Shown: positions 23,664-52,801 of the stretch, piece by piece
Position numbering within the stretch: position 1 is the first letter of the stretch
Layout of the letters: the number at the start of each line of letters is the position of its first letter
Assembly: GCA_030447865.1 (NCBI GenBank)
Contig: JAUJOD010000001.1
Coordinates: forward strand, 1 to 64,000
From: Nocardioidaceae bacterium
GTDB lineage: Bacteria > Actinomycetota > Actinomycetes > Propionibacteriales > Nocardioidaceae
Length of the DNA: 64,000 nt
Direction: 5' to 3'
Program-made: the position numbers and the translations under genes
The notes under the pieces: model-generated
What the model was told of the DNA's origin: nothing
The model's database searches: none
The model's input: only the letters and a program-made list of their open reading frames with translations

Positions 23664-23831
23664 TTGTCAGACTCCACTCGGCCCAGAGGTCGACTACGTT
23701 CTGACAACTCCGGGACCCTTGAGAGTTGTCAGACTCCACTCGGCCCAGAGGTCGACTACGTTCTGACAACTCCGGGACCCTTGAGAGTTGTCAGACTCCA
23801 CTCGGCCCAGAGGTCGACTACGTTCTGACAA
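23664..23831 (-). repeat. Three tandem copies of the 44-nt TTGTCAG palindromic element
   Basis: Units at 23664-23707, 23726-23769 and 23788-23831 are identical 44-mers separated by an identical 18-nt spacer (period 62 bp). Each unit begins TTGTCAGACTCC and ends ACGTTCTGACAA, with 8-bp terminal inverted repeats and a partly paired interior. The array starts 19 nt behind the smpB stop codon. Related copies lie at 40588-40695 and 52758-52801. The period is not a multiple of three, so it cannot encode a repeated peptide. Confidence 0.95.
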
Positions 23832-23850
23832 CTCCCAAAGAGAGCGCGTG

Positions 23851-24330
23851 TCAGTCGACTCTGCCTTTGGCGCGGCGGCCCAGCTCGCGGACGGTCTCGC
23901 GTTCGGCGTCCCGCTTGGCCAACACCTGCCGCTTGTCGTAGGTCCGCTTGCCCTTGGCCAAGGCCAGCTCGACCTTGGCGCGGCCGTCCTTGAAGTACAT
24001 CGACAGGGGTACGACGGTGAGCCCGCGCTCGTTGACACGCGACGCCATCTTGTCGATTTCCTTGCGGTGTAGCAACAGCTTGCGCTTACGTCGCGGAGCG
24101 TGGTTGTTCCAGGTCCCTTGCAGGTACTCGGGAATGTGCGCGCCGTGCAGCCACACCTCGCCGTCGCTGATCTCCGCGAACGCGTCGACGAGGGTGGCTC
24201 GGCCGGCGCGCAACGACTTGACCTCGGTGCCAGTGAGGACCAGCCCTGCCTCGACGACGTCCTCGATGAAGAACTCGTGCCTGGCCTTGCGGTTCTGCGC
24301 GATCAGCTTGCGCCCGCGCTCCTTGGCCAT
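23851..24330 (-). CDS. smpB: SsrA-binding protein SmpB
   Basis: 159 residues from the ATG at 24330 ([20 protein letters not shown]). An OB-fold core contains [25 protein letters not shown] and the Lys/Arg-rich RRKRKLLLH, followed by the basic C-terminal tail ([20 protein letters not shown]). It binds the tRNA-like domain of tmRNA and mimics a codon-anticodon helix in the stalled ribosome. It follows the M23 peptidase, ftsX and ftsE genes on the same strand, a common actinobacterial order. Three tandem palindromic repeats follow its stop. Confidence 0.97.
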
Positions 24331-24376
24331 GCCGACCATCCTTCCGCACCGAGCCAGCGGGACCGAAATCCGGCGG

Positions 24377-25708
24377 TCAGAGCCAGCGCGCCGGGTCGAC
24401 CGTGTGGCCGTTGACGTCGACCATGAAGTGCAGGTGACAGGCGGTCGAGTAACCGGTCGTTCCGGAGTACCCGATCAGCTGGCCGCGGTCGACGCGCTGC
24501 CCCACCCCCGCGGCGAACGTCGCCAGGTGGTTGTACGTCGTCGACAGGCTCACTCCCCTGACGAACCCATGGTCGATGAGGATCCGATTGCCGTACCCGA
24601 CGTTGTAGTACGCCGATAGGACCCGACCGTCGGCGGCGGCGTAGATCGGCGTACCGCAACCGGCGTGGAAGTCGGTGCCGTCGTGCAGCTTCAGCACCCG
24701 CAGAATGGGGTGCATCCGCATGCCGTACGACGACGTGACGTAGGTGTGGCGCACCGGATAGCTCAAGAAGCCGTCGTCACCGGCTGCTGCCGCCCGCTGC
24801 TGCTGGCGCACCTGGGCCAGCTCGCGGGCATGGTGGCGGGCGCGGCGCTCGGCGATCTTGCGCAGCCGCTCCTCGACCCGGTCACGCTCCCGCTTCAGGG
24901 TCTTGAGCCGGCTGATCTCGGCCTGTTTCGCCGCCGCCATCTCGCCACGGAGTTCGCGCAGCGTTGAGACCCGGGTCACCACGGCTTGCTTGGCGGCCTC
25001 GGCTTGCGCCTCTAGCTCGCGTTTCGTCTGCAGGTTCGCGGCAGCGACCGCGCGCTGCTCAACGACCGCCTGCTTCGCCTGCGCGACGCGCTGGACGGTC
25101 AGCTTCAGCAACACCCGGGCCGCCTGAACCTCCTGCAGCGCCACCGACTGCTTGTTGAGAACCGTGTCGGTTGCCTGCAGACCATCGAGCGCGTCGTGCA
25201 GCGACTCCGAGTCAAAGGCGATCCCGAGGCTGATTGTGCCGCCCGCCTGAGAGTTGGAGACCGCGTACGCCGCCAGTGCCGCCCGGTTCTCCTGTACGTC
25301 GGCTCGCCCCGCCGCCAAGTCCGCTCGGGCGTCGCCGAGCCGGGCCACCGCCCGGGTCAACCGCGCCTGCATCTGACGGTCAGTCCCCGCCGCCACACGC
25401 ACTAGTTCCCGGACGCGGGCCAACTCCGCCCGCGCGTCAGCCAGGTCGCGGACCGCCCCGTCGAGTCGACCTTTCAGCCTGAACAGCTTGGTCGACACCT
25501 CGTCGATGTCGCCGGTCTGGGTATGGATCGCCCGCTCCAGCCGGGATTTGCGGTGGTGCAGGTCGGAACTGTCGTCGGAGGCGGCGCTGGGTGCCGAGCT
25601 CGTGCCAGCGACGCTGAGCAGTGACGCGCTGAGCGCTACGACCACGCTGATCCGAGTTCTTGATGTGCGTCCGTTGGGGAGGTTCCGGACCACAGGTAAG
25701 GACCTCAT
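24377..25708 (-). CDS. Murein hydrolase activator/peptidase, coiled coil plus M23 (LytM) domain
   Basis: A 443-residue exported protein. The signal sequence spans residues 15-40. Long coiled coils (about 45-310) are rich in Arg/Ala/Glu. The C-terminal LytM/M23 domain has the zinc ligands in HDGTDFH (H-x3-D) and HLHF, plus [11 protein letters not shown], so the metal site is intact, unlike EnvC-type degenerate activators. The fold and neighbourhood (directly downstream of ftsE-ftsX) match PcsB/EnvC/RipC-like partners. FtsEX regulates these to cut septal peptidoglycan. The gene is 44 bp from ftsX. Confidence 0.92.
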
Positions 25709-25751
25709 CTGTGCGGTCGGTTACTGGCGTCTCGACCGTAGCCGAACGAGG

Positions 25752-26669
25752 TCAGACTTTGAGGTATTTACGCGTCATCAGCAGTGTCGGAATCACCGCG
25801 AGGGCCAGCGCGATCGCGACGATGAAACCCATGGCGTCAACAGCGTCGCCCCAGTTGACCCACGGCAACACCCGCACGTGCTCTCGAAGCCAGGGCACGA
25901 AGAACACCATGACGGTGACCACCGACCCACAGGCCAAGGCAGCCCCAACCAGCGCCGAGACCACCACCTCGAGCACGAACGGCAACTGAATGTAGAGGCT
26001 GGACGCGCCGACAAGTCGCATGATCCCGATCTCACGGCGTCGCGCCATCGCGGCCAGCCGGATCGTGTTCGACACCTGCAACACGGCGGCGAGCACCAGC
26101 AAAGCCGCCCCGCCCAGCGCCAACCACTTGAGCGCGTTCAGCATCCGATAGATCGGGTCGAGTTCCTTGCGCAGATCGAAGATCTGGCCGACACCGGCAA
26201 GGTTGCGTACCTGGCTCACCAAGGCGACGTTGTCGTCGGGGTCGGCCAACGTCGCCCAGTACGCCGTCGACATATCCGAGACCCGGAGCTCACTGGCAAT
26301 CGCATCCGGGTTGCCGGCCCGGTCGGTGTGCGTAGCCAAGAACCGCTGGTAGGCGACGTCGCGGCTCTCGTAACGGTAGGAGTCGACGTACTCGCTGGTG
26401 GACAGCACCCGCTCGACTGCCTTCTCTTGCTGCTGGGTGGCCTGACCGCCAACACACGCCGGGGTCTGGCTGTTCTCGGCGCAGAAGACGATTTTCAGCT
26501 CGAGCCGGCTGCCCAGCGTCCGCTCACTGGTCTCGACCTGCGCGCGAATCAACAACCCGAGGCCCACCAGCGTCAAGGAGATCCAGATGGTCAAGATGAC
26601 AGCGATCGTCATCGAGACATTACGACGCAGGCCGTTGCCGAGTTCGGTGGCCACATATCTCAGTTGCAT
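25752..26669 (-). CDS. ftsX: Cell division ABC transporter permease FtsX
   Basis: 305 residues with the FtsX topology: an N-terminal cytoplasmic segment, TM1 about 21-41 and an extracytoplasmic domain (about 45-170) with a Cys pair (VFCAENSQTPACVG). Three C-terminal helices follow, about 178-200, 225-255 and 275-298. The ATG start at 26669 gives MQLRYVATELGNGLRRN, the conserved FtsX N-terminus. Together with FtsE it forms a transmembrane mechanical switch that activates the peptidoglycan hydrolase encoded next. Confidence 0.95.
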   Translation of the reverse strand: MQLRYVATELGNGLRRNVSMTIAVILTIWISLTLVGLGLLIRAQVETSERTLGSRLELKIVFCAENSQTPACVGGQATQQQEKAVERVLSTSEYVDSYRYESRDVAYQRFLATHTDRAGNPDAIASELRVSDMSTAYWATLADPDDNVALVSQVRNLAGVGQIFDLRKELDPIYRMLNALKWLALGGAALLVLAAVLQVSNTIRLAAMARRREIGIMRLVGASSLYIQLPFVLEVVVSALVGAALACGSVVTVMVFFVPWLREHVRVLPWVNWGDAVDAMGFIVAIALALAVIPTLLMTRKYLKV

Positions 26670-26720
26670 GGTTCCCTGGTTGTCGTTCGGAGCTGCGTGC
26701 CCGTACGGCGGGCGGCGCAG

Positions 26721-27410
26721 TCAGGTCTGGTAGCCGTAGAGGCCGCGCGCCTGGTCGCGCACGACCTTCCCTGACTGCAGCTCGATGACCCGCTTGCGCA
26801 TCTGGTCGACGACGCCGGAGTCATGGGAGGCCATGATGACGGTGGTCCCCGTTCGGTTGATGCGGTCGAGCAGCTTCATGATGCCGACGGACGTCGCCGG
26901 GTCGAGGTTGCCGGTCGGCTCGTCGGCGATCAGGATCATCGGGCGGTTGACGAAGGCGCGCGCAATGGCCACCCGCTGCTGTTCACCACCGGAGAGCTCG
27001 TCCGGCATCCGCTGACCTTTTCCGTCGAGGCCAACCAGCTGCAGCGTCTCGGGAACCACCTTCTTGATGGCGCTTTTTGGCTTTCCGATCACCTGCAGGG
27101 CGAACGCGACGTTCTCGCTGACCGTCTTGTTGGGCAGCAGCCGGAAGTCCTGGAACACCGTGCCGATCTGGCGGCGCAGCCCCGGCACCTTCCAGCTGGC
27201 CAGCCGGTTGATCTCCTTGCCCGCGACGTACACCCGACCATTGGTCGGGCGGGCCTCGCGCAGCACCAACCGCAAGAACGTGGACTTTCCCGAGCCGGAA
27301 GGGCCGACGAGAAAGACGAACTCGCCCTTGTCGATGTCGACGTCGACGGTGTCAAGCGCCGGACGGTGGTGGCCGCCGTAGGACTTGGTGACCTTTTCGA
27401 ACCGAATCAC
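26721..27410 (-). CDS. ftsE: Cell division ATP-binding protein FtsE
   Basis: 229 residues from a GTG at 27410 ([13 protein letters not shown]). The 31 in-frame upstream codons are Arg/Pro/Ser-rich and not family-like. Walker [10 protein letters not shown], signature [15 protein letters not shown], Walker [12 protein letters not shown] and H-loop MASHD are all present. It is the nucleotide-binding partner of FtsX, controlling septal hydrolysis by ATP turnover. Its stop lies 51 bp from the ftsX start. Confidence 0.95.
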
Positions 27411-27474
27411 TGGCGAGATTCTAGGTGAGGAGGAACGGCTTGCCCGGCAGGGGAGGGCCGGGCGCGTCCCCGGC

Positions 27475-27981
27475 TCACTTGCGCAGGGCCTCCGCAGCGG
27501 CAAGGTGGAGCTCGCCGAGCTCGTCGTGCTGCGACGTCGCCCGCTGCAGCAACTGGTCGAAGTCGGTTGCCTGCAACCGCTGATCGGTGCTGCTCAGCCG
27601 TTTCAGCAACTGCCAGAGGTCAATCTTCGCCGCGACACCGGACCGCATCGCCTCCAGCTCCAAGACGTCACTCAGCGGCGACCGCCGTAACAGGGTGCCA
27701 TTGGGCTTGAGCCGGCCGACCTTCTCGACGGCCCAGCCGGCGACGACACGGTACGTCGGGCGGGGGACGTCCAGCCGGTCCATCAGCCTGATCACGGTAT
27801 CCCTGTCCTTGTCGATCTCGGCGGCCAGCCGAGCGAGCGCCGCCCTCCGCTCGGCGTCGGTCTGGGACTTGGCCGCGCGTCGGAACAGCTCCAGCCCGGC
27901 GGTGGCCGCGGTCAGATGATCTTGCAGGTAGATAGCGAGCAGTTGCTCAGCCGACACGTTGGCATCCGGAAGAAGATTCAT
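27475..27981 (-). CDS. Conserved hypothetical, helical-bundle protein
   Basis: 168 residues, all-alpha, soluble and without a signal peptide. The pattern of four long helices ([78 protein letters not shown]) recalls ferritin-like or DinB-like bundles. The expected di-iron ExxH pairs are not clearly placed, so the assignment stays open. It sits 64 bp upstream of ftsE on the same strand and downstream of a prfB/sugar-transport block. Confidence 0.75.
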
Positions 27982-28035
27982 GTCTAAGCAGTACCACGTT
28001 CACCCGCCTAGCAGGGTCACTGGGAGCAGAGGCCC

Positions 28036-29098
28036 TCAGTCGGTCTCCCAGGAGAAGAACCGGCTTGCGAGGAGCAGCACAGCAACGGCGAAGCCGACCA
28101 GGATCAGGATCGGCATGACGGCTGCCCCCGGCCCCTGGCCACGGACCATGACGTCAAGCATCCCGTCGTTGAGGTGGCGAAGCGGCAACAAGGTGCGAGA
28201 CAACGTCGAGCCACCTGGGGGCGTCGTCGAGCGGGAAGAACGAGCCGGACAGGAACGCCATCGGCAAGACGAAGATGTTCGCCAGGGAGGTCGCCCCCTC
28301 GACCGTCTTGGCGATCGCACCTGCCAACAGGCCCAGCGCCATGAACGACAGCGTTCCGCAGATCAGCAGCGGAACGCTCATCCACCACGAGCCCGAGAGC
28401 CGCAGGCCGAACGCTGCAATCGCCAGCCCGACGAAGATCACCATCTGCACCAGCGCGATCGCGACGGTGACGCCGATCCGGGCTGCCACCACGGTCCGGG
28501 TGGATACGGGAGCGAGCCGGAGCCGCCGCAGCAGCTTGTTGCTGCGCCAGCCCGTGAGGGTGGCAGCTGCTCCGAACGTCGCACTTGTCGCTATCGCCCA
28601 GCCGAGCAGGCCAGGGGTGACGAACTGGATCGTCTGCAACGACTCGTCCTCGACCCGCTGGGAGCTGTAGCTGTACCTCGGCGGCTCACCGGTGGCGGCG
28701 AGGTTCGCCGACTGCACGAACGCTTGCAGTGTTCCTTGCGCCACTGCCGCCTGGACCCGATCAGCGTCGCTGTAGTGCACGACCACCTCGTTGCCCCGCT
28801 GCTCAATGGCCAGTGTGTCATCGCCGGCGCGGACATCCTCCAATGCCGCGTCCAAATCGTCAGACTCCTCGACGGCGAACGCGTCATCGAACGCCGCCTT
28901 GGCTTGCGCCGGAAGGTTGTCGATCAAGGCAACGTCGCCGACTTGGACGACGTCGATCTCGCTTTGGGACTGGTCGGAGAACACCCCGCCGAACAAGACG
29001 AGGAACATCAGTGGGAAGAAGATCGAGAAGAACACCGCCTGCCGGTCCCGGACGAACCCCTTGAAGATGGCCACCGAGAGGCTCCAGAAGGCGGTCAT
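28036..29098 (-). pseudogene. ABC-2 type transporter permease, frameshifted near the C-terminus
   Basis: The frame from the ATG at 29098 encodes an ABC-2 permease. The N-terminal helix is FFSIFFPLMFLVLFGGVF, with an external domain to about residue 165, then helices to ANIFVLPMAFLSGSFFPLDDAPRWL. After WLDVVS it loses coherence and stops at 28154. The expected end (RTLLPLRHLNDGMLDVM, then ILILVGFAVAVLLLASRFF) is read in the next frame down to 28036. One base is missing or extra near 28195-28202. Its start overlaps the stop of the partner ATPase gene by 3 bp. Drug or lipid export is typical of the family. Confidence 0.85.
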
Positions 29099-29997
29099 GC
29101 GCGGTACTCCCGGCCGGTCAGGGTCAAGAACACGTCTTCGAGCGTCGCGCTCTTGACCTGCAGCCCCTGCAGCGCCTGCCGCTCGGCGAGCTGCGCCAGC
29201 ACGGTAGCCGGGTCGTGTGTCGCCAGGACCACCGAGGAGTCCTGCTCCTCAACGCTGTCCACGCCGTCGAGCTGGCCGGCCGAGCTGGCGTCGATGGCGC
29301 TGGGTTCAACGCTGATCCGCACGCCGGCGTCCAAGTCACGGATGAGAGCGGCCGGGGAGGCAAGCTGCAAGATCCTGCCCCGGTCCATGATCGCGACCCG
29401 GTCGCACAGGGCCTCTGCCTCGTCCATGTAGTGGGTGGTGAGCACCACTGTCCGGCCGTGGTCGTTCAACGAGCTCAGCAGATCCCACAGGTTGCGCCGC
29501 GCCTGCGGGTCCAGGGCCGCGGTCGGCTCGTCGAGGAACACCAGTTCCGGCTCGTGAACCAGCGCGCAGGCGATCGAGAGCCGCTGGCGCTGACCACCTG
29601 ACAGCTTCTCGGTGCGGGTGTCAGCCTTGTCGTCCAGGCCCACCCGGTGCAGCCATTCGTCGCCTGCGGCGGCCGGGACGCCCGTACAAGGAGGCGAAGG
29701 TGCGGATCTGCTCGCGAGCGGTCAGCTGTTCGAAGAACGCGGAGGCCTGCAGTTGGACCCGATCCGGGGCAGCAGCGCGGCGTTGCGCGGCCAGGGAGAC
29801 GCCCCGAGCAGCGACACCGAGCCGCTGTCGGCGGCGCGCAGACCCTCGATGATCTCCAGCGTCGTCGTCTTGCCGGCTCCGTTGGGTCCGAGGATGCCGA
29901 AGAACTCTCCAGCGCGCACGGTGAAGTCGACCCCGTCGACGGCGGTCAGGGTGCCGTAGACCTTGCGTACGCCGGCGACCACGATGACGTCCCCCAT
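29095..29997 (-). pseudogene. ABC-2 exporter ATP-binding protein, two frameshifts
   Basis: Three frames together make one DrrA-like ATPase. 29997 to about 29760 gives MGDVIVVAGVRKVYG and Walker A GPNGAGKTT. About 29760-29680 gives VQLQASAFFEQLTAREQIR. From about 29665 downward comes DEWLHRVGLDDKADTR, signature LSGGQRQRLSIACAL, Walker B LVFLDEPTAALD and H-loop TTHYMDEAE. The first shift is explained by one missing G after GGG at 29758-29761. The second lies in the GC-rich stretch 29665-29680. Both halves of this exporter are thus broken in this assembly, either by true decay or by indel errors. Confidence 0.85.
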
Positions 29998-30034
29998 GCC
30001 GAGAACCCAACGAGGCCAGCGGGTCAGCCAGCGC

Positions 30035-30958
30035 CTACTCCTTGCTGCCGCTCACCGAGATGCCCTGCATGATGTACTTGCCGGCCACCGCGAACAGCAG
30101 GAACATCGGCAGCACCACCAACACGTTGGCCGCCATCACGACCTCCCACTCGCGCTGCCCGCCCTGACCGAACTGGTCGAGCACGGACTTCAGACCCCTG
30201 GGAAGCGTGAACAGGCTCTCGTCGCGCAGGTAAACGAGCGGCTTGAGCAGGTCGACCCAGCTGGCCTGGAACTCCAGGATGAACGTGATCGCCAGCGCCG
30301 GCTTCGACATCGGCAGGGCGATCCGCCAGAACAACCCGAAGAAGCCGGAACCGTCGACGCGGGCTGCGTCGAAGATCTCCCGCGGCAAGCCGCGGAAGAA
30401 CTGCCGGAGCAAGAAGATGTAGAACGCCGAGCCGAACAGGTTCCCTGCCCACAACGGCACCTGGGTGCTGGCGAGCCCGAGATAGTTCCAGATGAGGTAC
30501 GTCGGGATCAGCGTGGCCGCCGAGGGCAGCATCATCGAGCCCAGCACCAGTGCGAACAGCGCGTTCTTGCCCCGGAACTGGAAGTACGCGAAGCCAAACG
30601 CCACAAGTGCACTCGACAGCGTTACCGCTATCGCTGCCGCCATACCCACGACCACGCTGTTGAGCGTCCACTGCAGGAACGGCAGCTCCTCGAGGACCTT
30701 GGCGTAGTTGCCGAACGCGAACGGGTCGGGGATCAGCTTGTTGTTGAAGACGTCCTGGCGCGGTTTCAACGAGGCGCTGACGAGCCACACCAGCGGGTAC
30801 ACGAAGATCACCGCGAACACCCCGCAGGTCAACCAGACGGCGACCCGACGGGCCCAGCCGGCCCCCCCACGCGGCGATGGCGACGTCGGTGCCGGAGTGA
30901 CCTCCCGGGCGGCGGCTAACGGGGCAGTGGCGGGCACGCTGGTCATGTCGGTCGACAT
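30035..30958 (-). CDS. Carbohydrate ABC transporter permease, MalG/UgpE type
   Basis: 307 residues from the ATG at 30958. There are six transmembrane helices and the EAA loop (FFRGLPREIFDAARVDGSGFFGLFWRIALPMSKP) that contacts the ATPase. The first residues (MSTDMTSVPATAPLAA) are a Thr/Ala/Pro-rich cytoplasmic tail. The start overlaps the stop of the MalF-type permease gene (TGATG), so translation is coupled. It is the last gene of the binding protein-permease-permease operon. No ATPase gene is nearby, so a shared MsiK-like ATPase elsewhere is likely. Confidence 0.92.
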   Translation of the reverse strand: MSTDMTSVPATAPLAAAREVTPAPTSPSPRGGAGWARRVAVWLTCGVFAVIFVYPLVWLVSASLKPRQDVFNNKLIPDPFAFGNYAKVLEELPFLQWTLNSVVVGMAAAIAVTLSSALVAFGFAYFQFRGKNALFALVLGSMMLPSAATLIPTYLIWNYLGLASTQVPLWAGNLFGSAFYIFLLRQFFRGLPREIFDAARVDGSGFFGLFWRIALPMSKPALAITFILEFQASWVDLLKPLVYLRDESLFTLPRGLKSVLDQFGQGGQREWEVVMAANVLVVLPMFLLFAVAGKYIMQGISVSGSKE

Positions 30959-31842
30959 CAGTCGCTCCGGTAGTGGACGAGTCGTCGGCTGACGACGAGC
31001 TGGACGGCGGTGATCGCCATGATGATGAGGAACAGCAGCCACGACAGCGCCGCGGCGTACCCCATCTCGAAGTCCCGGAACGCCTGCTCGAACAGGTAGA
31101 CGACGTAGAACAGCGCCTCCTCAGGCGGCGGCGTCGTCGTGGCGCCGAAGTACATCGTGTAGACCTCGCTGAAGAGCTGCAGCGAGGCGATCGTGTTGAC
31201 CACCACCGAGAAGAAGATCGCCGGGCTGATCATCGGCAACGTGATGTGGTAGAACCGGCGCCACGCCCCCGCCCCGTCGACAAGGGCCGCCTCACGCAGA
31301 TGCGCAGGCACCTCGGCCAGGGCCGCGAACAAGATCAATGTCACCGAGCCAACGCTCCACAGCGACATGATGACGATCCCTGGCTTGATCCACATGGGGT
31401 CGGTGGTCCAGTTCGGCGTCGGCAGCGCGAACGTGCCGAGCACGTTGTTGATCAAGCCGGTCTGGCCGTTGAGCAGCTGCAGGAACAGTACGCCGGTCGC
31501 GACAGGCGGTGTGACCACCGGCAGGTAGATGACGGTGCGGAACACGCCTTTCAGCCGCCCGGCCGACTGCAGCAGCAGCGCCAGCCCCAAGGCAATCCCG
31601 ATCGACAGCGGCACATAAAGGGCGGTGTAGAAGAACGTGTTCTTCAGGGCCGCGTGTGCGTGCGGGTCGTCGAGCGCGTCGCGGTAGTTCTCGGCGCCCA
31701 CCCACTGCGTCGACGACAACACGTCGTAGTCGCTGAACGACATCACGAACGTCGCGATCACCGGTCCCAGCGTCAACCCGAGGAAACCGATGACCCACGG
31801 CGACAAGAATCCATAAGCGGCCCGGGTCTCCGGGCGCATCAC
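30958..31842 (-). CDS. Carbohydrate ABC transporter permease, MalF/UgpA type
   Basis: 294 residues, six helices. The first is YGFLSPWVIGFLGLTLGPVI, and the EAA loop EVPAHLREAALVDGAGAWRRFYHITLPMISP precedes helix five. It can start at the GTG at 31842 or at the ATG at 31839. Both overlap the TGA of the binding-protein gene, indicating coupling. With the MalG-type partner it forms the membrane pore of a CUT1-family sugar importer. The sugar is not evident from sequence. Confidence 0.92.
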   Translation of the reverse strand: MMRPETRAAYGFLSPWVIGFLGLTLGPVIATFVMSFSDYDVLSSTQWVGAENYRDALDDPHAHAALKNTFFYTALYVPLSIGIALGLALLLQSAGRLKGVFRTVIYLPVVTPPVATGVLFLQLLNGQTGLINNVLGTFALPTPNWTTDPMWIKPGIVIMSLWSVGSVTLILFAALAEVPAHLREAALVDGAGAWRRFYHITLPMISPAIFFSVVVNTIASLQLFSEVYTMYFGATTTPPPEEALFYVVYLFEQAFRDFEMGYAAALSWLLFLIIMAITAVQLVVSRRLVHYRSD

Positions 31843-33254: not shown

Positions 33255-33343
33255 AATGATTTCCCTCCGTCGCGTAGGCGGAAGAGCCAGATGGTGCTCG
33301 TCGCGTCCCAAGCTCCGCCGCTGGTGAGGACAAGGTAAGCGAT

Positions 33344-33355
33344 AGAAGCGCTTCT
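33344..33355. promoter_or_regulatory. LacI-family operator palindrome
   Basis: AGAAGCGCTTCT is a perfect 12-bp palindrome with the central GAAGCGCTTC typical of LacI/CcpA-family sites. A similar half-site (CCGCTTCT) follows at 33363-33370. It lies about 90 bp upstream of the sugar-binding lipoprotein start and just behind the prfB stop. Operator function is inferred. Confidence 0.7.
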
Positions 33356-40587: not shown

Positions 40588-40695
40588 TTGTCAGTCTGTA
40601 GTCGACCTATAGGTCGACTACGTTCTGACAGCTCCCGAGCCTCCGAGACTTGTCAGGGTCCACGGCCCCAATGCAGGCGTGAGTCGTCCTGACAA
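40588..40695 (-). repeat. Two copies of the 44-nt TTGTCAG palindromic element behind the dioxygenase gene
   Basis: Unit 1 at 40588-40631 (44 nt) contains a perfect central palindrome, GTAGTCGACC-TATA-GGTCGACTAC, between TTGTCAG and CTGACAG. Unit 2 at 40650-40695 (46 nt) keeps the ends TTGTCAG...CTGACAA but has a diverged interior. The spacer between them is 18 nt, as in the 23.7-kb array. Unit 2 ends 11 nt from the tryptophan dioxygenase stop codon. Confidence 0.9.
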
Positions 40696-43749: not shown

Positions 43750-43809
43750 CCGGGGCAGGTAAATCGGAACGCGGCCGCGCACTGCCAGCTGACAGTGCAA
43801 ACCGCCGGC

Positions 43810-45438: not shown

Positions 45439-45476
45439 GAGGGAATCCTGCCACGGCCTCTCCCCCTCCCCAACCG

Positions 45477-46478
45477 TCAGGCGGACTTCTTCGCGGCCCG
45501 CTTCTTCGGCTCGGACTTGGTCGTCTTCGCTGCGCTCTTGGCCGCCGGTTCCGAGGCCGGCTTCGCTGTCTGCTGGGTGGGTTTCTTCCGCGTGGTCGTC
45601 CGCGACGACGCGGCTGACTTCGTGCCGGTCTTGGCCGTCGCCGCCCCATCCCCGGCAGCGTCGTCTGATAGGTCTGAAGCGTCGCCCGCAGCGGCGGCCT
45701 CGCGCCGCTTCTTAGCCGCGTCCACACTCGCCCGCAGCGCCGCGACCAAGTCGACGACCTCCGCGGTCTCGCCGTCGTCGGTGTCGGTGTCAGGCATCGG
45801 CAGCCCGGCGGCCTTGGCCTGCACCAGCTTCTCGAGCGCCTCCCGGTAGTCGCTGGAGTAGCGTGCCGGATCGAACTCAGCAGTAAGCGTGGAGATGTAG
45901 GACTCCGCCATCCCCACCTCCTGGCTGCGGATGCTCACCGAGTCGTCGGGCACCGCGAAGCCGCTGTCGCGCACCTCGTCGGGCCACAGCATCGTCTGCA
46001 GCACGAGCGCGCCGTCCTTCTCCCGCAGCAAGGCCAGCGTCTCGCGGGTGCGGATCGCGACCTTCACCAGCGCGCACTGCCCGGTCTTGGTCAACGCGTC
46101 CCGCAGCAGCACATAGGGCTTGGCGCCGACCCCGTCGGCAGCCAGGTAGTAGGCCTTGGAGAAGTACAGCGGGTCGATCTGCTCGGCGGGCACGAACTCC
46201 AGCACCTCGATCGACTTCGCGGTCGGCAGCGGCAGCTCGCCGAAGTCCTCGTTGGTGAGTACGACGAGTCGTCCGTCGGGCAGCTCGTAGGCCTTGCCGA
46301 TGTCGGAGTACGGCACCTCCTCGCCGTCGACCTCGCATACGCGCTTGTATCGGATCCTGCCCCCGTCGGCCTCGTGCACCTGCCGAAAGGAGATGTTGCG
46401 CTCCTCGGTGGCGGAGTAGACCTTGATCGGGATCGTCACCAGACCGAACGAGATCGTGCCCTTCCAGATCGCCTGCAT
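45477..46478 (-). CDS. ku: Non-homologous end-joining protein Ku
   Basis: 333 residues from the ATG at 46478 (MQAIWKGTISFGLVTIPIKVYSA, the conserved bacterial Ku start). The Ku core beta-barrel spans about 1-255. A long Lys/Ala/Thr-rich basic tail ends in KRAAKKSA, an extension found in many actinobacterial Ku proteins that aids DNA bridging. Ku binds double-strand ends and recruits LigD, whose gene is not in this window. Confidence 0.96.
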   Translation of the reverse strand: MQAIWKGTISFGLVTIPIKVYSATEERNISFRQVHEADGGRIRYKRVCEVDGEEVPYSDIGKAYELPDGRLVVLTNEDFGELPLPTAKSIEVLEFVPAEQIDPLYFSKAYYLAADGVGAKPYVLLRDALTKTGQCALVKVAIRTRETLALLREKDGALVLQTMLWPDEVRDSGFAVPDDSVSIRSQEVGMAESYISTLTAEFDPARYSSDYREALEKLVQAKAAGLPMPDTDTDDGETAEVVDLVAALRASVDAAKKRREAAAAGDASDLSDDAAGDGAATAKTGTKSAASSRTTTRKKPTQQTAKPASEPAAKSAAKTTKSEPKKRAAKKSA

Positions 46479-46687
46479 GGTGCCTCCCATCGGTGTGCGC
46501 TGCGTTCACGCTAGCAACTCGGTGGGCATGTTCGGCTGCGTCCGGGCGATTGCGGCCGCCTGCATGCGCTCCTGGCGAGGGAGCGAGCCGGTACGGCGGG
46601 CCGGCCCCTCACGCCCGTATCCTGGCGCTTCCCGGCGCCGCGGCAACCTTGACCCTCGATCCCGACAGCAACGGAGGACCTGCCCCG

Positions 46688-47056
46688 ATGAGCTTGACCC
46701 GTCCCGCCGGCCTCGCCGGCGCTCTGCTGGCCGTCGTTCTCAGCCTCACCGCCTGCGCTACCGGCTCCACCAATTTTGACGCTGGCCCCGTGGGGGTCGT
46801 CGTCAAAATCACCGAGCAGGACGGCACCATCAAGCCCAGCGGCGACACCGTCAAGGTGGAGAAAGGCCAAGAGATCTTGCTGCTCGTGAGCTCCGACGCC
46901 GAGGACGAGATCCACGTCCACTCAGACCCAGAGCACGAGTTCGATGTCAAGGCCGAAGACGACCAGGAGTTCACGTTCTCCATCGACGACCCGGGCACCT
47001 ACGAGGTGGAGTCGCACGAGCTCGGGGTCGTCATCGTGAAGCTGCAGGTCAGCTAG
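46688..47056 (+). CDS. Cupredoxin-like lipoprotein
   Basis: 122 residues from the ATG at 46688. The lipoprotein signal is MSLTRPAGLAGALLAVVLSLTAC (Cys23). The rest is a beta-sandwich resembling the EfeO/plastocyanin-like cupredoxin domain: VKVEKGQEILLLVSSDAEDE, HVHSDPEHEF and GTYEVESHELGVVIVKL. His residues in HVHSDPEHE and ESHELG could bind a metal, but there is no Cys in the canonical copper loop. The membrane protein gene starts 3 bp after its stop. Confidence 0.82.
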   Translation: MSLTRPAGLAGALLAVVLSLTACATGSTNFDAGPVGVVVKITEQDGTIKPSGDTVKVEKGQEILLLVSSDAEDEIHVHSDPEHEFDVKAEDDQEFTFSIDDPGTYEVESHELGVVIVKLQVS

Positions 47057-47059
47057 CTC

Positions 47060-48403
47060 TTGCCGAGGTCTCTTCCGACCAGCGAGGTGCTGGCGCACGG
47101 CATCGGCGGGCGCAGCGACCTGCCGGTACCGGCCGATTACGTGCTGGTCGCCGCCGCCGTCGCACTGCTCGTCTCGTTCGCCGTGTTGGCACTCGCCTGG
47201 CGTGCGCCGCGGTTTCGCGGCGACGACTCCGGTCACGCGCTGCCGGGCTGGCTCGCATCGCTCGCCGACTCCGCCGTCACGCGGGCGGTTGTCGTCGCGG
47301 CGGCGCTGCTGTTCGCGGCCTGGGTGACGATGGCGGCGGTATTCGGCGCCGACAGCCTGGTCAACCCGACGTTCGGCACTGTCTACGTGCTGCTCTGGGT
47401 TGGGCTGGTCCCGGCCGCGCTGCTGTTCGGACGCATCTACCGGCTCTGTAACCCGCTGCGCTGGCTGTTTCGCGGGATCAACAAGCTCGGAGGCGGCGAC
47501 CCCAGTCGAGGTGTTCTCGAGTACCCGGCCCGGCTCGGCTACTGGCCAGCGGTGGGACTGCTGTTCGCGTTCGTCTGGCTGGAGCTGGTTCATCCGGCCA
47601 CGACGCTGGACCTGACAGCGGTCCGGCTGTGGTTCGCCGTCGTAGCGTCAGTGCTCCTGGTGGGCGCCGCACTGTTCGGTGACACGTTCTTCGAGCGCGC
47701 CGACCCGTTCGAGGTGTACTCGTCGCTGGTGGCGCGGCTGTCGCCGTTCGGGCGGCGCGCCGACGGTGCCCTGGTCGTGCGCAACCCGCTGCAGAACCTC
47801 GACGGGCAGCCCGCCGTACCTGGACTCGTGGGCGTCGTGGCCGTGCTGTTCGGCTCCACGGCGTTCGACGGCTTCAAGGACTCCTCCCGCTGGCTCAACT
47901 TCTCCCAGCAGCACTCCGCGCACCCGATGCTGCTCAACACCGCCGCCCTGCTCGGCTTCTGCCTCGCCGTGCTCGTCACCTTCTCGATCGCCTCGGTGGC
48001 CACCGCCGGCATCGGCCACCTGGAGCGCCGCCGCCTGCCCGCCCTCATGGCACACTCGGTGGTGCCGATCCTCGTTGGGTACGTCGTCGCGCACTACCTG
48101 TCGTACTTCCTCGTCGTCGGCATCACCACCGTGCAGCAGCTCGGCGATCCGCTGTCACGCGGCTGGACGCTCACCTCGTGGGCGTACGGCGTGAACAAAT
48201 ACGCCATCTACGACCACCCCACCGCTCTCGCGGTGACCAAGGTGGTCGCGGTCATCACCGGCCACGTGCTCGGCGTGATCGCCGCCCACGACCGCGCCGT
48301 CCGGCTGCTGCCCCGCCGGCACGCCCTCACCGGGCAGCTACCCATGTTCGTCCTCATGGTCGGTTACACCCTCACCGGCCTCTGGCTGCTCTTTTACTCA
48401 TGA
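47060..48403 (+). CDS. Polytopic membrane protein of unknown function
   Basis: 447 residues, starting at a TTG at 47060 (a GTG at 47090 is an alternative). About ten to eleven transmembrane helices, including YVLVAAAVALLVSFAVLALAW, VLLWVGLVPAALLFG and FVLMVGYTLTGLWLLFYS. Conserved-looking polar features are RIYRLCNPLRWLFRG and QQHSAHPMLLNT. No transporter motif is recognised. It is tightly coupled to the cupredoxin lipoprotein gene, suggesting a shared task such as metal or electron handling at the membrane. Relatives are sometimes labelled fenitrothion hydrolase, a name not supported by anything seen here. Confidence 0.8.
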   Translation: MPRSLPTSEVLAHGIGGRSDLPVPADYVLVAAAVALLVSFAVLALAWRAPRFRGDDSGHALPGWLASLADSAVTRAVVVAAALLFAAWVTMAAVFGADSLVNPTFGTVYVLLWVGLVPAALLFGRIYRLCNPLRWLFRGINKLGGGDPSRGVLEYPARLGYWPAVGLLFAFVWLELVHPATTLDLTAVRLWFAVVASVLLVGAALFGDTFFERADPFEVYSSLVARLSPFGRRADGALVVRNPLQNLDGQPAVPGLVGVVAVLFGSTAFDGFKDSSRWLNFSQQHSAHPMLLNTAALLGFCLAVLVTFSIASVATAGIGHLERRRLPALMAHSVVPILVGYVVAHYLSYFLVVGITTVQQLGDPLSRGWTLTSWAYGVNKYAIYDHPTALAVTKVVAVITGHVLGVIAAHDRAVRLLPRRHALTGQLPMFVLMVGYTLTGLWLLFYS

Positions 48404-48445
48404 CCCCCACCCGCCGACACGTCAGCGACCGCCACGACCCGCGTC

Positions 48446-49711
48446 CTACCGCCTGGCCAACCTTCGCCTCTTGCCACCGTTCTCCGATACGCCGGCAAGG
48501 TCGGCAGCCATCGCCCGCAGCGCCTTCGTCACCTTCGCGTCGGGCGCGCACTCAGTCAGTGTGCGGCCGTGCACGAGAGCCCGGTCGCATGCCTGGCGGT
48601 CGTCGGGCAGCGTTCGAACGCTGGCCACTCCGCTCAATCGAGCAACCGTCTCCACGATCTCGCTCTCGGTCCACCCCAGGCTGTCTCGGACCCGGTTGAT
48701 CACGACGTACGGCGTCGCGCCGGGCACAACCTGACTCAGCTCATGCAGGGCGCGGATCAGCCGGCCAAGGCTGACCGGGTCCGCACCACCAACCACGACG
48801 ACAGTGTCAGCGTTCTCGATCGCCTCGAGTGTCGCCCCGTTGCGACGAGGTGCGGCCACGTCATAGCTGATCTCTTCGTCAATCTCGATGCTGAACCCGC
48901 AGTCGATCACCGTGAACGCGCACACTGACCGAGCCATGTCGATGACGTGGCGCAGCAAGACCGGCTTGACCTCGGTCCACCGGTCCGCCCGAGGAAGGCC
49001 GGTCAGCACCCGGAGCGCTGGGTTGACTCGACGGGCGTGGCGGGCTAGCGACTCACCGTCTAGGGCGCCAACGTTGGCGGCCCGAGCGGCAGCGAGTAGG
49101 CCGGACGTCTCGTCCAGCATGCCCAACATGGAAGCCACTGCGCCGCCGAAGACGTCGGCATCGATGAGCAACGTCGCGGCCCGCAAGCGCGCGAGCTCCG
49201 CGCTCAACCCAAGCGAGACCACCGACCTGCCCGGCGCACCGCTGCCGCCCCAGACGGCGATCACCTGGCCCCGTCGGCGCGGTTCTTGACCGTCGAAATC
49301 CTGGTCGTCCGGGGACGGTGCCACACTCATCCAGGCGTCCGCGACCGACACCGCAGCCGGATCGTTCATCGCCTCGGTGAGCACCTCGCGCAGGGTGGCC
49401 ACATCGTCGGCGAAGACCAACGACTCGAGGCCGAGACGCCGAAGCGCCGCCTCGTCGGCGCTGGACGCCTCAGCGGTTGCGCCGACGACGGCGACGTTGT
49501 CCTGTCGCAGTCGGGCGATGACGTCGCGGTCGAGGTTTCGCAGGTGCGCGGAGACGACGGCCAGCTGCGCCTGATGGGCTGCGGCGGCAGCCAAGAGGTC
49601 AGCTACGTCGACGCAGCGGCGTACGACGTGAAAGGAGGGGCCCTCCAACGCCGTCAGTAGCCCAGCCTCGAACTCAACGGCGCCAACGGCGACAAGCACT
49701 CCCGACGACAT
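48446..49711 (-). CDS. CpaE-like MinD/ParA-family ATPase
   Basis: 421 residues. An N-terminal receiver-like domain of about 120 residues is followed by a MinD/ParA-like fold. Its P-loop is degenerate: WGGSGAPGRSVVSLGLSAELA, with Gly-Arg-Ser where Gly-Lys-Thr is usual, a form I recall from actinobacterial CpaE homologues. TLLIDADVFGG (switch/Walker A' region), FTVIDCGFS and TVVVVGGADPVSLGRL follow. CpaE positions pilus-secretion machines. The SAF-domain gene 3 bp upstream on the same strand supports a Tad/septum-type cluster, though no TadA or TadBC gene is in view. Confidence 0.85.
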   Translation of the reverse strand: MSSGVLVAVGAVEFEAGLLTALEGPSFHVVRRCVDVADLLAAAAAHQAQLAVVSAHLRNLDRDVIARLRQDNVAVVGATAEASSADEAALRRLGLESLVFADDVATLREVLTEAMNDPAAVSVADAWMSVAPSPDDQDFDGQEPRRRGQVIAVWGGSGAPGRSVVSLGLSAELARLRAATLLIDADVFGGAVASMLGMLDETSGLLAAARAANVGALDGESLARHARRVNPALRVLTGLPRADRWTEVKPVLLRHVIDMARSVCAFTVIDCGFSIEIDEEISYDVAAPRRNGATLEAIENADTVVVVGGADPVSLGRLIRALHELSQVVPGATPYVVINRVRDSLGWTESEIVETVARLSGVASVRTLPDDRQACDRALVHGRTLTECAPDAKVTKALRAMAADLAGVSENGGKRRRLARR

Positions 49712-49714
49712 GGC

Positions 49715-50410
49715 TCAGCCGCTGATTCTGACCAGGACCACGGTCGCCCCGTTGAGCGCGTCAAGCACGGCAGAGGTCTCGTCCGGGTCTGGCAACGCGA
49801 CCACGACCTGCCGGTCCGAGCCGAGTCCAGCAACACCCAGCTCGCCGACCGACATGACGGTGGCATCGGGCAGGACGAGCGTCGCTGAGCGGTTGGCCTC
49901 TTCGGGTTTCGGCACGGCCCACACCTCGACGTGGTCGCCCACCGAGATGTCGGCTGGCAGGCCAGCGCTGGTCACTCCCAGCGGGAGTTGGTGAGGGAAC
50001 GCGGTCGGGTCAGTGGAGACTGCCGACCTGGCCAATAGTTCGCCGGCGCCGATATCACGGGTGAAGGCAGCAGCCGCCGGCAACGGATCACTGGCCGGCC
50101 AGTAGCGGTCGGCATCGACGGAATCGGTGAAGTGCACCCGCACCGTGCGCAGGTCCGAGGCGCTGGCCGACATGCCGGCGCCGACGTCGCGGTTAAGGGC
50201 CCACACCGCAACAGTGTCGTCAGCCGCGGCGAGCACTCTCGCGCCGATCACCACCGACGCGAGAACAAGCAGAGCGCCGAGCCATAGCCGCGGGTCTCTC
50301 CACCGCGACCGGCGCGGCCGGTTCGCCGGGGGGGACGCGAGGCGGCTGTCGGCGTCAACGGCATCCGGTGCGCGGACCGACGTGCGGTGCAAGAGGGACA
50401 CGGCGCACAT
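49715..50410 (-). CDS. SAF-domain membrane protein (CpaB-like)
   Basis: 231 residues from the ATG at 50410. There is a basic cytoplasmic N-terminus, one membrane helix (WLGALLVLASVVIGARVLA), then a SAF domain: VWALNRDVGAGMSASASDLRTVRV, AAAFTRDIGAGELLARSAV and GDHVEVWAVP. CpaB/RcpC proteins use SAF domains in pilus secretin assembly. Gram-positive homologues sit with CpaE, as here (3-bp spacing). It is divergent from the BldC-like regulator gene. Confidence 0.87.
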   Translation of the reverse strand: MCAVSLLHRTSVRAPDAVDADSRLASPPANRPRRSRWRDPRLWLGALLVLASVVIGARVLAAADDTVAVWALNRDVGAGMSASASDLRTVRVHFTDSVDADRYWPASDPLPAAAAFTRDIGAGELLARSAVSTDPTAFPHQLPLGVTSAGLPADISVGDHVEVWAVPKPEEANRSATLVLPDATVMSVGELGVAGLGSDRQVVVALPDPDETSAVLDALNGATVVLVRISG

Positions 50411-50503
50411 TCTGCCTGGGTGTGCAGATCCGTGGGAAGACTTATCCACACCGCCCCCTCAGCGTTGCCGTTTCCCGTCCTCGGCACATGCGACAATGCC
50501 GCC

Positions 50504-50779
50504 ATGGCTGGTTCCCCGCCTCGGTTCTACGGGCTGGCAGACGTGGCTGAGGTTCTCAACATCTCTCCAGCGCAGGTCTACGCGCTCGTACGTCGGGGCG
50601 ATCTCCCGGCAATAAAGATTGGTGGCCGCGGGCAGTGGCGGGTCGAGCACACTGAGCTTGAGAACTACATCGCGAACGCCTACGAGAGCACCAAGCAATA
50701 CATCCAGGAGCACCCGTACTCCTCCGACGAGCTCGCCGACAGTGAGTTACAGCCAGATGAGCCGGTGCTCGACAGTTAA
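50504..50779 (+). CDS. BldC-like MerR/excisionase-type DNA-binding protein
   Basis: 91 residues from the ATG at 50504. The winged helix-turn-helix FYGLADVAEVLNISPAQVYALVRRGDLPAIKIGGRGQWRVE is of the BldC/Xis type. The tail (ESTKQYIQEHPYSSDEL) is acidic. BldC-like proteins bind direct repeats cooperatively and control development in actinobacteria. It is transcribed divergently from the SAF-cpaE pair. Confidence 0.88.
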   Translation: MAGSPPRFYGLADVAEVLNISPAQVYALVRRGDLPAIKIGGRGQWRVEHTELENYIANAYESTKQYIQEHPYSSDELADSELQPDEPVLDS

Positions 50780-50800
50780 GCGCGGACGCGGATAACCGCT

Positions 50801-51364
50801 TCAGAGCCATCCCTGGCCGCTGCGTCTGACGGCGCCGATGGCGTCGAATGACACCGTGACCCGCCCGCGTACTGTCGAGCGACGGGGAGCTTCGCCGAGT
50901 TCATGTACGGCGAGATCGACGAAGTCAGCACCCACGCGGTCGGGCGTGCCCGTGACCTTGTCGCCGGCGCGCGTGAGCACCGTTACCGCGCACCGGTCGA
51001 TCGCAATCGCACGTAGAGCCGCGGTCATCGGCAGCCTTCCAGTCACCCGACCAACGCCGGCAGGACCAGTCGCGGTGGTGGGAAGGTTGCTCACCGTGAT
51101 GATCGCTGAGCCGGGAACGACGACCTCGTCGGGCGCGTTCAGTAGCAACCAGTTAGCCCCGACCTGCAGCAAGGGACCGCTCAGGGAGCCGGCTCCGCTG
51201 GTCGTCAGAGCAATGTGCTGGCCGACCTGCGCCCGTATCCGGTTCAGCAAGGTGACCTGAGCGATCTCGCCTCGGGTGCGGTCCGCGACCTCCGCATCGA
51301 TCTCAGCCCACTCCAAGGCTCCAGCCTGGCCCTCCAGGTCGGCGAAAAGGTCCTGCCAGCGCAT
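50801..51364 (-). CDS. Conserved hypothetical protein
   Basis: 187 residues from the ATG at 51364 (MRWQDLFADLEGQAGALEWAE). It is soluble, alternating helix at the N-terminus and beta-rich afterwards (HIALTTSGAGSLSGPLLQVGANWLLL, DRCAVTVLTRAGDKVTGTPDRVGADFVDLAVHE), suggesting small barrel repeats. It is convergent with the BldC-like gene (21-bp gap) and divergent from the LysM gene. Similar proteins accompany this cluster in other actinobacteria, but the function is not known to me. Confidence 0.78.
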   Translation of the reverse strand: MRWQDLFADLEGQAGALEWAEIDAEVADRTRGEIAQVTLLNRIRAQVGQHIALTTSGAGSLSGPLLQVGANWLLLNAPDEVVVPGSAIITVSNLPTTATGPAGVGRVTGRLPMTAALRAIAIDRCAVTVLTRAGDKVTGTPDRVGADFVDLAVHELGEAPRRSTVRGRVTVSFDAIGAVRRSGQGWL

Positions 51365-51509
51365 GTCGCTGAACGCTAACCGGCTGTTGCGCTCCCTGTC
51401 ATCCGTCCCGTTCCGCCCGAGAGACCTCAACTGTGGATGACCTCTTGACCGGAACCCCATCTGGAAGCTAGAAAAAGCAAACGCAAGCAAACGAAGGTAA
51501 AGGCACCAT

Positions 51510-52199
51510 ATGCGCGCGTCAGATCTAATCTGTGCTGGGCTCAGGAGGCTGCTCCGCTTGGGTCGAGCCGTGCTCGCGATCGCAGCCATCGGCGGCATGA
51601 TGAGCGTCGCCTGGTGGGCGGCGACACCTGCAGTTCACGACGTACGTGCAACGCTCACGACGGGTGCGGCGCCGGCCGGTGGGTGGACGCTAGAGCAACT
51701 GGTTGTCGACATCGCAGCAGGTGCGCTGCTCGTCGTGGTTGCGGTGCTGGCCGCGCTCGTTGCGCTCAATCTTGCCGGAGCCGCCATGGCGAGTCGGGCG
51801 GCGCGGCTCGACCGGCTGGCCGCCCGGATGAGCCCGCGATGGCTGCGTCACTGCGTCTTCGCCTGTTGTGGATTCGCCCTCACCGCCCCGGCGCTGGCTT
51901 CGACCGCGAGCGCGCATGACAACGGTACCGACGGTGCATCGGGTCAGCGCTCCGTCGCTCGACTCGAGGGGCTCCGCTTGCCCGACCTGCCCGCCGCTCC
52001 GCCGACGCACATTGTGACCGTACGACCCGGTGACACCTTGTGGTCAATAGCGGAGCGCGGCCTCCCACCCGAATCGACCGACAGCGCCATCGTCACCCGG
52101 GTGAACGCGCTCTACGCGGCGAACCGCCAAACGATCGGTGCCGACCCCAACCTGATCTTCCCCGGACAGCAACTCACGACACCCGGAGGTGCCTCATGA
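51510..52199 (+). CDS. LysM-domain membrane protein
   Basis: 229 residues. The first membrane helix is about 19-38, a second about 65-90 (LVVVAVLAALVALNLAGAA) and a third about 113-128. An extracytoplasmic Pro-rich linker leads to a C-terminal LysM domain: HIVTVRPGDTLWSIAERGL...IVTRVNALYAANRQTIGADPNLIFPGQQL, which binds peptidoglycan. Its TGA overlaps the ATG of the Rv3235-family gene, forming a two-gene operon. Confidence 0.88.
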   Translation: MRASDLICAGLRRLLRLGRAVLAIAAIGGMMSVAWWAATPAVHDVRATLTTGAAPAGGWTLEQLVVDIAAGALLVVVAVLAALVALNLAGAAMASRAARLDRLAARMSPRWLRHCVFACCGFALTAPALASTASAHDNGTDGASGQRSVARLEGLRLPDLPAAPPTHIVTVRPGDTLWSIAERGLPPESTDSAIVTRVNALYAANRQTIGADPNLIFPGQQLTTPGGAS

Positions 52200-52744
52200 C
52201 CAGTCACGCACCGACCCCCATCGCTCCCGGCGTACCGACGCGCCATCCTCGCGGTTGGGCGGCGAAGCCTCGATCAGCACAGGACTGCGGCGCAAACTAC
52301 AGCCAGGGAGCTCTTGCTCTCACCTATCCCCTGCCCAGCGGGCTGGACTGCACTCCCCGCTCCACCGCGTTGTGCCTGGTGCAGCCCCCAGTGGACGGCC
52401 AATCGCAGACGCGGTCGGAGTCGGAGGCGTGGGCGGCGCGTTTCCTGCAGGCGGTCGTCGAGGTCGTGTCCAGCGACCGGCCACTGGCGCAGCTGGTCCG
52501 GTGGACTGACGAGGCGGTGTACGGCGAGATCGCTCGACGCAGACAGCGAGTCGCCTCAGCGCGAAAGGCGCCGACTGCTCGAGCGGGACGCGCTCAGGTG
52601 GTGACCGTCCACATCGGGCACCCCACCTCTGACAGCGCAGAGGTGGCTGCTCGAGTCAGCATGGGTGGGCGCTCCCGGGCCATCGCGGCTCGGTTGGACC
52701 GGCATCGCGACCACTGGATGTGCACGGCTATCCAGTTCGGCTGA
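52196..52744 (+). CDS. Rv3235-family protein
   Basis: 182 residues from the ATG at 52196. The N-terminal ~60 residues are Pro/Ser-rich. The C-terminal domain (ARFLQAVVEVVSSDRPLAQLVRWTDEAVYGEIARRRQ, then VVTVHIGHPTSDSAEVAARVSMGGRSRAIAARL) has the pattern of the mycobacterial Rv3235 family. In mycobacteria Rv3235 also lies near secA and the mtrA region. The function is unknown. A copy of the 44-nt palindromic element starts 13 nt behind its stop. Confidence 0.85.
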   Translation: MTSHAPTPIAPGVPTRHPRGWAAKPRSAQDCGANYSQGALALTYPLPSGLDCTPRSTALCLVQPPVDGQSQTRSESEAWAARFLQAVVEVVSSDRPLAQLVRWTDEAVYGEIARRRQRVASARKAPTARAGRAQVVTVHIGHPTSDSAEVAARVSMGGRSRAIAARLDRHRDHWMCTAIQFG

Positions 52745-52757
52745 CACTGACTCAGGC

Positions 52758-52801
52758 TTGTCAGAACGTGCTCGACCCATAGACCGACTGGAGTCTGACA
52801 A
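52758..52801 (+). repeat. Single copy of the 44-nt TTGTCAG palindromic element
   Basis: TTGTCAGAACGTGCTCGA...GAGTCTGACAA, 44 nt with 8-bp perfect ends. On the reverse strand it matches the 23.7-kb units at most positions. It lies 13 nt behind the Rv3235-family stop. Read in the direction of the gene it follows, its orientation is the same as for the other sites. Confidence 0.92.

Follow-up and report, generated by a model that had tools for sequence, protein, structure and literature searches.

The first 64,000 nucleotides (nt) of contig JAUJOD010000001.1 from a Nocardioidaceae bacterium (assembly GCA_030447865.1), called the window in the following, contain six short palindromic elements with the ends TTGTCAG and CTGACAA. 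They lie in three groups (23664-23831, 40588-40695 and 52758-52801) close behind the stop codons of three genes, which raises the question of what these elements are and how they spread. The analysis shows that they belong to a real repeat, probably a variant of the mobile palindromes that resemble repetitive extragenic palindromes (REPs), with an unusual pattern in which the ends are common and the cores appear to be exchanged. We consider it probable that they form a family of small mobile palindromes in the Actinomycetota which are REP-like and non-autonomous. Sequence comparison revealed the dispersal of the elements, changes in their arrays, cores which differ as blocks, copies which are probably chimeras and the presence or absence of elements within reading frames.

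The genome to which the window belongs (G000; 3,117,807 bases in 9 contigs, 97.8% complete) was searched for TTGTCAG and CTGACAA separated by 20 to 40 nt. The exact pattern was found 56 times and the reversed control not once; this genome-wide search, which an earlier note on the window had suggested, establishes that the repeat is real. With a covariance model derived from 36 copies, 127 matches were obtained in the same genome. These correspond to 64 distinct 44-nt places, 63 of which were found on both strands, and the weakest of them (C3:1211220) still has an E value of 0.0016. In this search 150 of 1658 candidates received a score, and the number of 64 places may therefore be an undercount.

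The ends given in the earlier note were confirmed, albeit as the inner part of longer ones. GA followed by G or C precedes TTGTCAG, and C or G followed by TC comes after CTGACAA, so that the conserved ends read GASTTGTCAG and CTGACAASTC (S stands for G or C). The listed places in G000 measure 44-46 nt from TTGTCAG to CTGACAA and 50-52 nt including GAS and STC; the core between the shared inverted ends has 30 or 32 nt and the unit as a whole about 50 bp. In the 50-nt form this core folds back upon itself. Two core types, which differ in length, are present in the genus of the window: one of 44 nt, with its centre near CYATRG, and one of 46 nt (45-46) that has the same ends. The length had been noted before as nearly always 44 nt. 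According to base counts in G000 and in other genomes, C is enriched in the 5' flank and G in the 3' flank. In 138 elements from outside G000 the two adjacent outward bases are mostly CC (120-125 of 138) and GG (118-121 of 138), with C- and G-rich sequence beyond. These 138 elements were collected with the pattern GASTTGTCAG-N30-CTGACAASTC, which fixes the ends and the N30 length and misses diverged copies.

The behavior of the cores was examined by comparing G000 with G001, a genome of the same genus with a completeness of 70% and a contamination of 2%. The search in G001 started from 28 groups of G000; it located 22, which do not include the window's dioxygenase locus, and 20 of the 22 were fetched. 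Seventeen of the 20 fetched loci have an element, two have none and one runs into a contig end. Further orthologous loci were taken from G001's own elements. Among 40 orthologous element pairs, with matched flanks that are 88-98% identical, the core identity is at least 0.90 in 12 pairs, at most 0.71 in 25 and between these values in only 3; several of the pairs come from a single locus or array and are not independent. A 46-nt element faces a 44-nt element in 11 pairs and two different 44-nt core types face each other in 12, the types being regular-expression labels. The set leaves out L104 and L106, which matched none of the own loci compared, L347, which is affected by a contig end, and L356, which does not fit the pattern. 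It also leaves out L365 and L366, where G001 has no element, as well as L090 and L091, which are G001 elements with no G000 partner. The two-humped spread of identities argues for a replacement of cores as blocks and not for drift. Two copies from G001 look chimeric by eye: C4:289309-289362 has two core types joined, and the copy in L356 resembles the own 44-nt element on the left and the 46-nt form on the right. At three loci shown the array size differs by one unit between G000 and G001. The smpB place, which has an array of three units in the window, is occupied in G001 by a single element of the other core type, and the place of the 44-nt element at 52758..52801 by a 46-nt element.

Next we considered whether the palindrome is maintained as a structure. 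The analysis used 27 elements which, judged by their titles and labels, all come from different genomes or bins; their end pairs are fixed by the choice of pattern. The cells of the stem are paired in 85.3% of cases as compared to 68.6% after shuffling. The covariation score is 0.412 versus 0.137 for shuffled sequences; none of 500 shuffles reached it and structures slid by 1-3 columns did not exceed 0.104. When only the 13 core pairs are counted, 272 of 351 cells are paired, with 16 G-U pairs among these. Judged from this strong covariation, the core stem is maintained across genomes via compensatory change, and the small number of G-U pairs may point to a constraint on the DNA or on both strands. 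Two related ideas were abandoned. A three-way-junction fold for the 46-nt form came from single sequences, and the alignment has only the outer stem in common. A choice of strand by G-U pairs in G000 (32 versus 16 G-U cells) fails because the energies are near-equal and the arms do not covary.

The arrangement of elements in series is regular. The 14 adjacent tandem pairs in G000 have a period of 62 nt in 13 cases and of 63 nt in one, and all units of an array lie on one strand. The spacers of the G000 arrays are mostly unlike in sequence; an identical 18-nt spacer is found in the smpB array and in an array at C3:1344350, 1.3 Mb apart, with elements that differ. Arrays with longer periods and well-conserved spacers were seen in L195 (4252-4843, period 107 nt) and L220 (313-570, 104 nt), and an array of a larger repeated unit, also with well-conserved spacers, in L112 (5719-6608) from Microlunatus speluncae. 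A fixed period could mean that the elements are protein sites on duplex DNA, which serve nucleoid or chromosome organisation and consist of two end boxes, both conserved, with a constant distance between them. The common ends and the near-fixed length among the listed matches are consistent with such a site, and the 62-nt period corresponds by our own reckoning to about six helical turns. On the other hand, a two-box duplex site has no need for the strong covariation of the core stem across genomes, and periods of 60 nt (L213), 104 nt and 107 nt occur elsewhere. Together, these points make a duplex protein site quite improbable.

The position of the elements relative to genes was determined with a custom codon-score gene caller, so that the following distances and classes carry errors. 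A stop codon is found within 40 nt in 48 of the 56 cases measured in G000 and in 109 of 127 in other genomes, with medians of 18 and 16 nt. The 50 groups in G000 are divided into 16 between convergent, 24 between co-directional and 8 between divergent genes, and 2 inside genes. The corresponding numbers for 137 groups in other genomes are 35, 57, 16 and 19, with 10 at edges; in control intergenic DNA of these genomes, with element-bearing gaps counted in, convergent gaps amount to 10.7 kb and divergent ones to 27.0 kb. Some copies are located in short gaps of co-directional genes, for example C6:135600 and C2:676225. The earlier note had claimed a fixed polarity of the elements relative to the stop. 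Among the 50 groups a stop within 40 nt is found on the AACGT side only in 14, on the other side only in 10, on both sides in 12 and on neither side in 14. This is close to the even division which the note itself had set against its claim. What survives from the proposal of a 3'-end element that has spread is that the elements are dispersed, lie close behind stops and seem to have spread; the fixed polarity, and also the transposase partner that was suggested with it, were not supported.

The position behind stops bears on a further explanation, in which the elements are selected bidirectional terminators or 3'-end RNA structures that spread by gene conversion, the flanks and the palindrome together forming a long hairpin on both strands. 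The median distances, the excess of convergent over divergent groups in other genomes (35 versus 16) relative to the control, and the C-rich 5' and G-rich 3' flanks speak for it. So does the fact that the places are mostly kept between the two species (17 of 20 fetched loci) in spite of many unlike cores. However, the flank base counts of G000 and other genomes reveal no T-run after the hairpin, the flank being G-rich, and the element is therefore not a canonical intrinsic terminator. Copies in frame inside genes and in short co-directional gaps do not fit either, and a hairpin would not require common ends of 10 nt. Furthermore, complementarity between the flanks in G000 (49 of the 50 groups, as one contains N) is equal within and across loci with 8.41 versus 8.41 pairs. 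For G000 the latter result also gives no support to the idea that the unit was inserted into the loop of an existing terminator hairpin. In other genomes the values are 9.96 within and 9.26 across loci, a weak difference in which genome identity is not controlled. We consider a selected terminator an unlikely explanation; a side effect of the elements on the 3' ends of transcripts, on termination or stability, would be plausible.

The copies inside genes are informative in their own right. In other genomes 19 of the 138 copies lie within called reading frames or at their end, and all of them are in phase 0. They occur in unrelated protein genes, as is characteristic for coding insertions of the type of the Rickettsia palindromic elements (RPEs). 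The translated peptide has the form (D/E)LS...D(N/K)S and stands in some cases at the very end of the frame. Phase 2 is closed in every copy by the TGA of CTGACAA. In G000 the 64 elements, read on both strands, give 128 readings. Phase 0 is open in all 128 of them, which stem from related copies and are not 128 independent facts, and phase 1 is open in 38. In other genomes phase 0 is open in 218 of 276 readings, about what base composition predicts by our own rough estimate, and phase 1 in 111 of 276.

A gene for a copper ATPase (assigned as a P-type ATPase) exhibits several states. Two inserts are present in L190 and in I. luteus (L368), and both are absent from the same gene in I. cucumis (L369), Luteimicrobium (L371) and L374. 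The insert at the second site is a different one in L370, and the inserts of L373 are DLS- and DNS-like. In L372, which holds the same gene as L377, one element replaces the stretch between both sites. The spread of these states among the orthologues suggests that the differences arose by insertion and not by loss. In L372 the peptide of the element substitutes the inter-site stretch of other orthologues including SEHP, as if two elements had recombined. Double elements in frame with a period of 60 nt were observed in L213 (1222-1331) and, from the peptides, around position 5278 of L127 and 685 of L131; this period is a multiple of three, compared to 62 nt in the intergenic arrays of G000.

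If the elements are mobile, they should be moved by some activity. The earlier note had proposed a search for an associated transposase gene of the RAYT type, and this partner was not recovered: the Y1_Tnp profile (PF01797) has 0 matches in G000 (97.8% complete) and none in the element-bearing genomes G001, G002, G003, G037, G045, G010, G267, G287, G343 and G354. Matches were obtained in the element-bearing G353, G379, G391 and G052 and also in G082, a genome with no match to the extended pattern. The presence of a RAYT/Y1 transposase hence does not track the elements, and it was rejected as partner. That the elements are classical REPs mobilised by such an enzyme is very unlikely. The size class, the 3' location and the intragenic copies are as described for REPs in PMC3733652, and four element-bearing genomes do have a Y1 match. 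Against this stand the 11 element-bearing genomes with no match, the Y1 gene of the element-free G082, and the window elements themselves, which have no unpaired GTAG or CGTC tag.

It is likewise very unlikely that the elements are miniature inverted-repeat transposable elements (MITEs), the tail of an insertion sequence family of the ordinary kind whose terminal repeats they carry. The present elements resemble MITEs in being non-autonomous and dispersed, with inverted ends and an intergenic bias. The exact sequence CGASTTGTCAG occurs at 51 places in G000; 47 of them are element ends, three are lone copies in coding DNA and one lies in a gap. The only inward pair about 1 kb apart (C6:150233/151270) encloses no transposase, and a parent insertion sequence was rejected on these grounds. 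In contrast to MITEs, the elements have a near-fixed length and genome-specific palindromic cores, and a core that is palindromic across genomes is unlike a deletion derivative. Neither a parent transposon nor a target duplication was found, with reference to exact ends in G000 and to the ATPase comparison, in which the boundaries are blurred. The lone end in the gap, C6:151270 (L383), lies beside what may be a decayed element. A dispersed single-site signal such as an uptake or restriction site was rejected, since 47 of the 51 places are element ends. Genes of the DUF222 (13E12) type are numerous in G000 and its relatives. DUF222/HNH genes, considered for a possible resemblance in their promoters, were discarded as partner; G000 has 24 matches, and no consistent TTGTCAG was found near the 16 loci fetched.

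The distribution of the family is patchy. The extended pattern, searched in the order of the window in a looser form (N24-36), is present in 17 of 391 genomes, and the highest copy number is 68, in the one-contig genome G267; the listed matches are 50 to 52 nt long and the control gave 0 in the genomes shown. Phylum-wide one of 197 genomes was positive, which is the window's own. A scan of genome contigs yielded at least 118 stretches, and the 80 with titles among the matches listed are all from actinomycetes. The taxa listed include Microlunatus, Isoptericola, Luteimicrobium, Cellulomonas and Propionicimonas, and the bins include Propionibacteriaceae, Nocardioidaceae, Frankiaceae and Geodermatophilaceae. 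Viral contigs gave 0 matches to the exact N30 and N32 forms. With a shorter pattern one reversed-control match was obtained, in G052.

A mechanism for the REP-like family can be proposed. A putative trans-acting enzyme, or replication or recombination acting on an extruded DNA hairpin, would copy the unit via its ends; recombination between units may be an alternative route of copying. New copies would survive chiefly just behind stops, where a hairpin should be harmless or useful. Occasionally they would survive in frame inside genes, presumably since there is usually one frame that can be read through on both strands. A more specific proposal is that a putative actinobacterial enzyme recognises the folded GASTTGTCAG/CTGACAASTC ends and replaces the interior. 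Places would then persist while the cores turn over in concert in each species, and the unit would be shaped for one-frame readability on both strands, which would allow its survival in genes. We offer this version tentatively, as a possibility with the odds against it.

Several observations weigh against the reading of the elements as a mobile family. The quality of the G001 assembly is one of them, because a mixed bin could mimic part of the core swapping. The mean core identity is 0.707 for orthologous and 0.627 for non-orthologous elements, and 30 of the 40 pairs exceed their own background; orthologous cores are thus on average somewhat more alike than non-orthologous ones and the turnover of cores is incomplete. 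Between G000 and G001 no empty site was seen that is clean and shows a target duplication. The two G001 loci with no element and the two G001 elements with no partner have diverged flanks, in the element-free loci downstream. The ATPase orthologues were compared at about 80% identity, which blurs the boundaries of the inserts. Within G000 alone the core arms show no covariation: not a single pair has both of its bases altered, and the pairing falls slightly short of that in shuffles (87.8 versus 89.2%). Taken with the covariation across genomes, this means that the fold is kept across genomes and that the G000 copies mix unlike arms. The aligned 46-nt form has no common inner fold. Finally, no mobile-element gene was recognised by eye in the 45 largest neighbour clusters from 1095 open reading frames, and no insertion sequence was found between paired ends in G000 with the exact CGASTTGTCAG.

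All six elements reported for the window were recovered. The smpB gene (PF01668) is located at 23851..24339 on the minus strand, and its array on the same strand consists of three 44-nt elements of identical sequence: unit 1 (23788..23831) 19 nt behind the stop, an 18-nt spacer (23770..23787), unit 2 (23726..23769), a second 18-nt spacer (23708..23725; the one that recurs at C3:1344350) and unit 3 (23664..23707; 67.3 bits with the covariance model). The second group follows the tryptophan 2,3-dioxygenase gene (PF03301; 40707..41546, minus strand). A 46-nt element with no strand assigned (40650..40695) starts 11 nt behind the stop. It is separated by an 18-nt spacer (40632..40649, also with no strand) from a 44-nt element on the minus strand (40588..40631; 55.7 bits), in which one end base is altered (CTGTCAG). 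The copy at 40650-40695 had been described as degraded; it has instead the length and core of the second form with the same ends. The single 44-nt element on the plus strand (52758..52801) lies 13 nt behind a gene at 52391..52744 (plus strand, start uncertain). Its position behind this stop was correctly noted, and the gene, formerly named as Rv3235 family, is assigned to PF20060 (DUF6459) by profile. A search of the window with up to 3 mismatches gave 7 matches, 5 of which are described elements, against a chance expectation of 1.34. With Rfam at the gathering threshold the elements in the window were unmatched. At E values up to 1 five loci gave a single sub-threshold microRNA match over an element (31 versus 67 bits). 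The only Rfam matches at the threshold were a transfer-messenger RNA gene (RF00023; 21577-21947, minus strand), about 2 kb from smpB, and a raiA RNA motif (RF03072; 58950-59212, minus strand, 129.9 bits). Positions 1-90, where window and contig start, are nearly all G, possibly an assembly or sequencing artefact.

The comparison with known repeats places the elements nearest to REPs. According to PMC3733652, REPs are short palindromes of high copy number near 3' ends, between convergent or co-directional genes; some lie in genes and some inside other palindromes, and they form dimers with spacers alike in length and unlike in sequence. The elements described here share these features, and their location agrees with stops within 40 nt in 48 of 56 and 109 of 127 cases and only 8 of 50 and 16 of 137 groups between divergent genes. 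The same source describes REPs with a CGTC tag and no known transposase, and leaves open how these spread and become homogenised (PMC3733652). The present elements differ from REPs in that both ends are alike and paired, TTGTCAG with CTGACAA, so that the TGTC letters are paired and no GTAG or CGTC tag exists. They also differ in the unit of about 50 bp (44-46 nt, or 50-52 nt extended) compared to a REP criterion of 20-40 bp, in the direct tandem order in G000 and in the lack of a link to RAYT. A further difference is their occurrence in Actinomycetota; the main text of PMC3733652 contains 0 words with actino-, nocardi-, frankia, streptomyces or mycobacteri-. RepRanger (PMC12306157) applies a general criterion to count the REPs of three actinomycetes, and it names no such motif in the part available. 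RPEs are also palindromes that are translated in frame in unrelated genes, with a size of about 150 bp according to PMC10969869. The elements described here have about 50 bp and are mostly intergenic. The pneumococcal SPRITE, RUP and BOX repeats differ from them in host and structure. They are small repeats as well, and one is called terminator-like in PMC10969869. The motif was not found described in the literature as covered by the titles and the starts of abstracts among the matches listed, a coverage that excludes most subscription journals.

The findings extend REP-like palindromes to the Actinomycetota, in a form with no known tag and no RAYT enzyme that tracks it. The combination of common ends and swapped cores at orthologous loci in two close species offers a way to study how tiny palindromes spread and become homogenised. 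The results also imply a warning, in that inserts of the element may be the source of short (D/E)LS...D(N/K)S peptides found in some proteins of actinobacteria.

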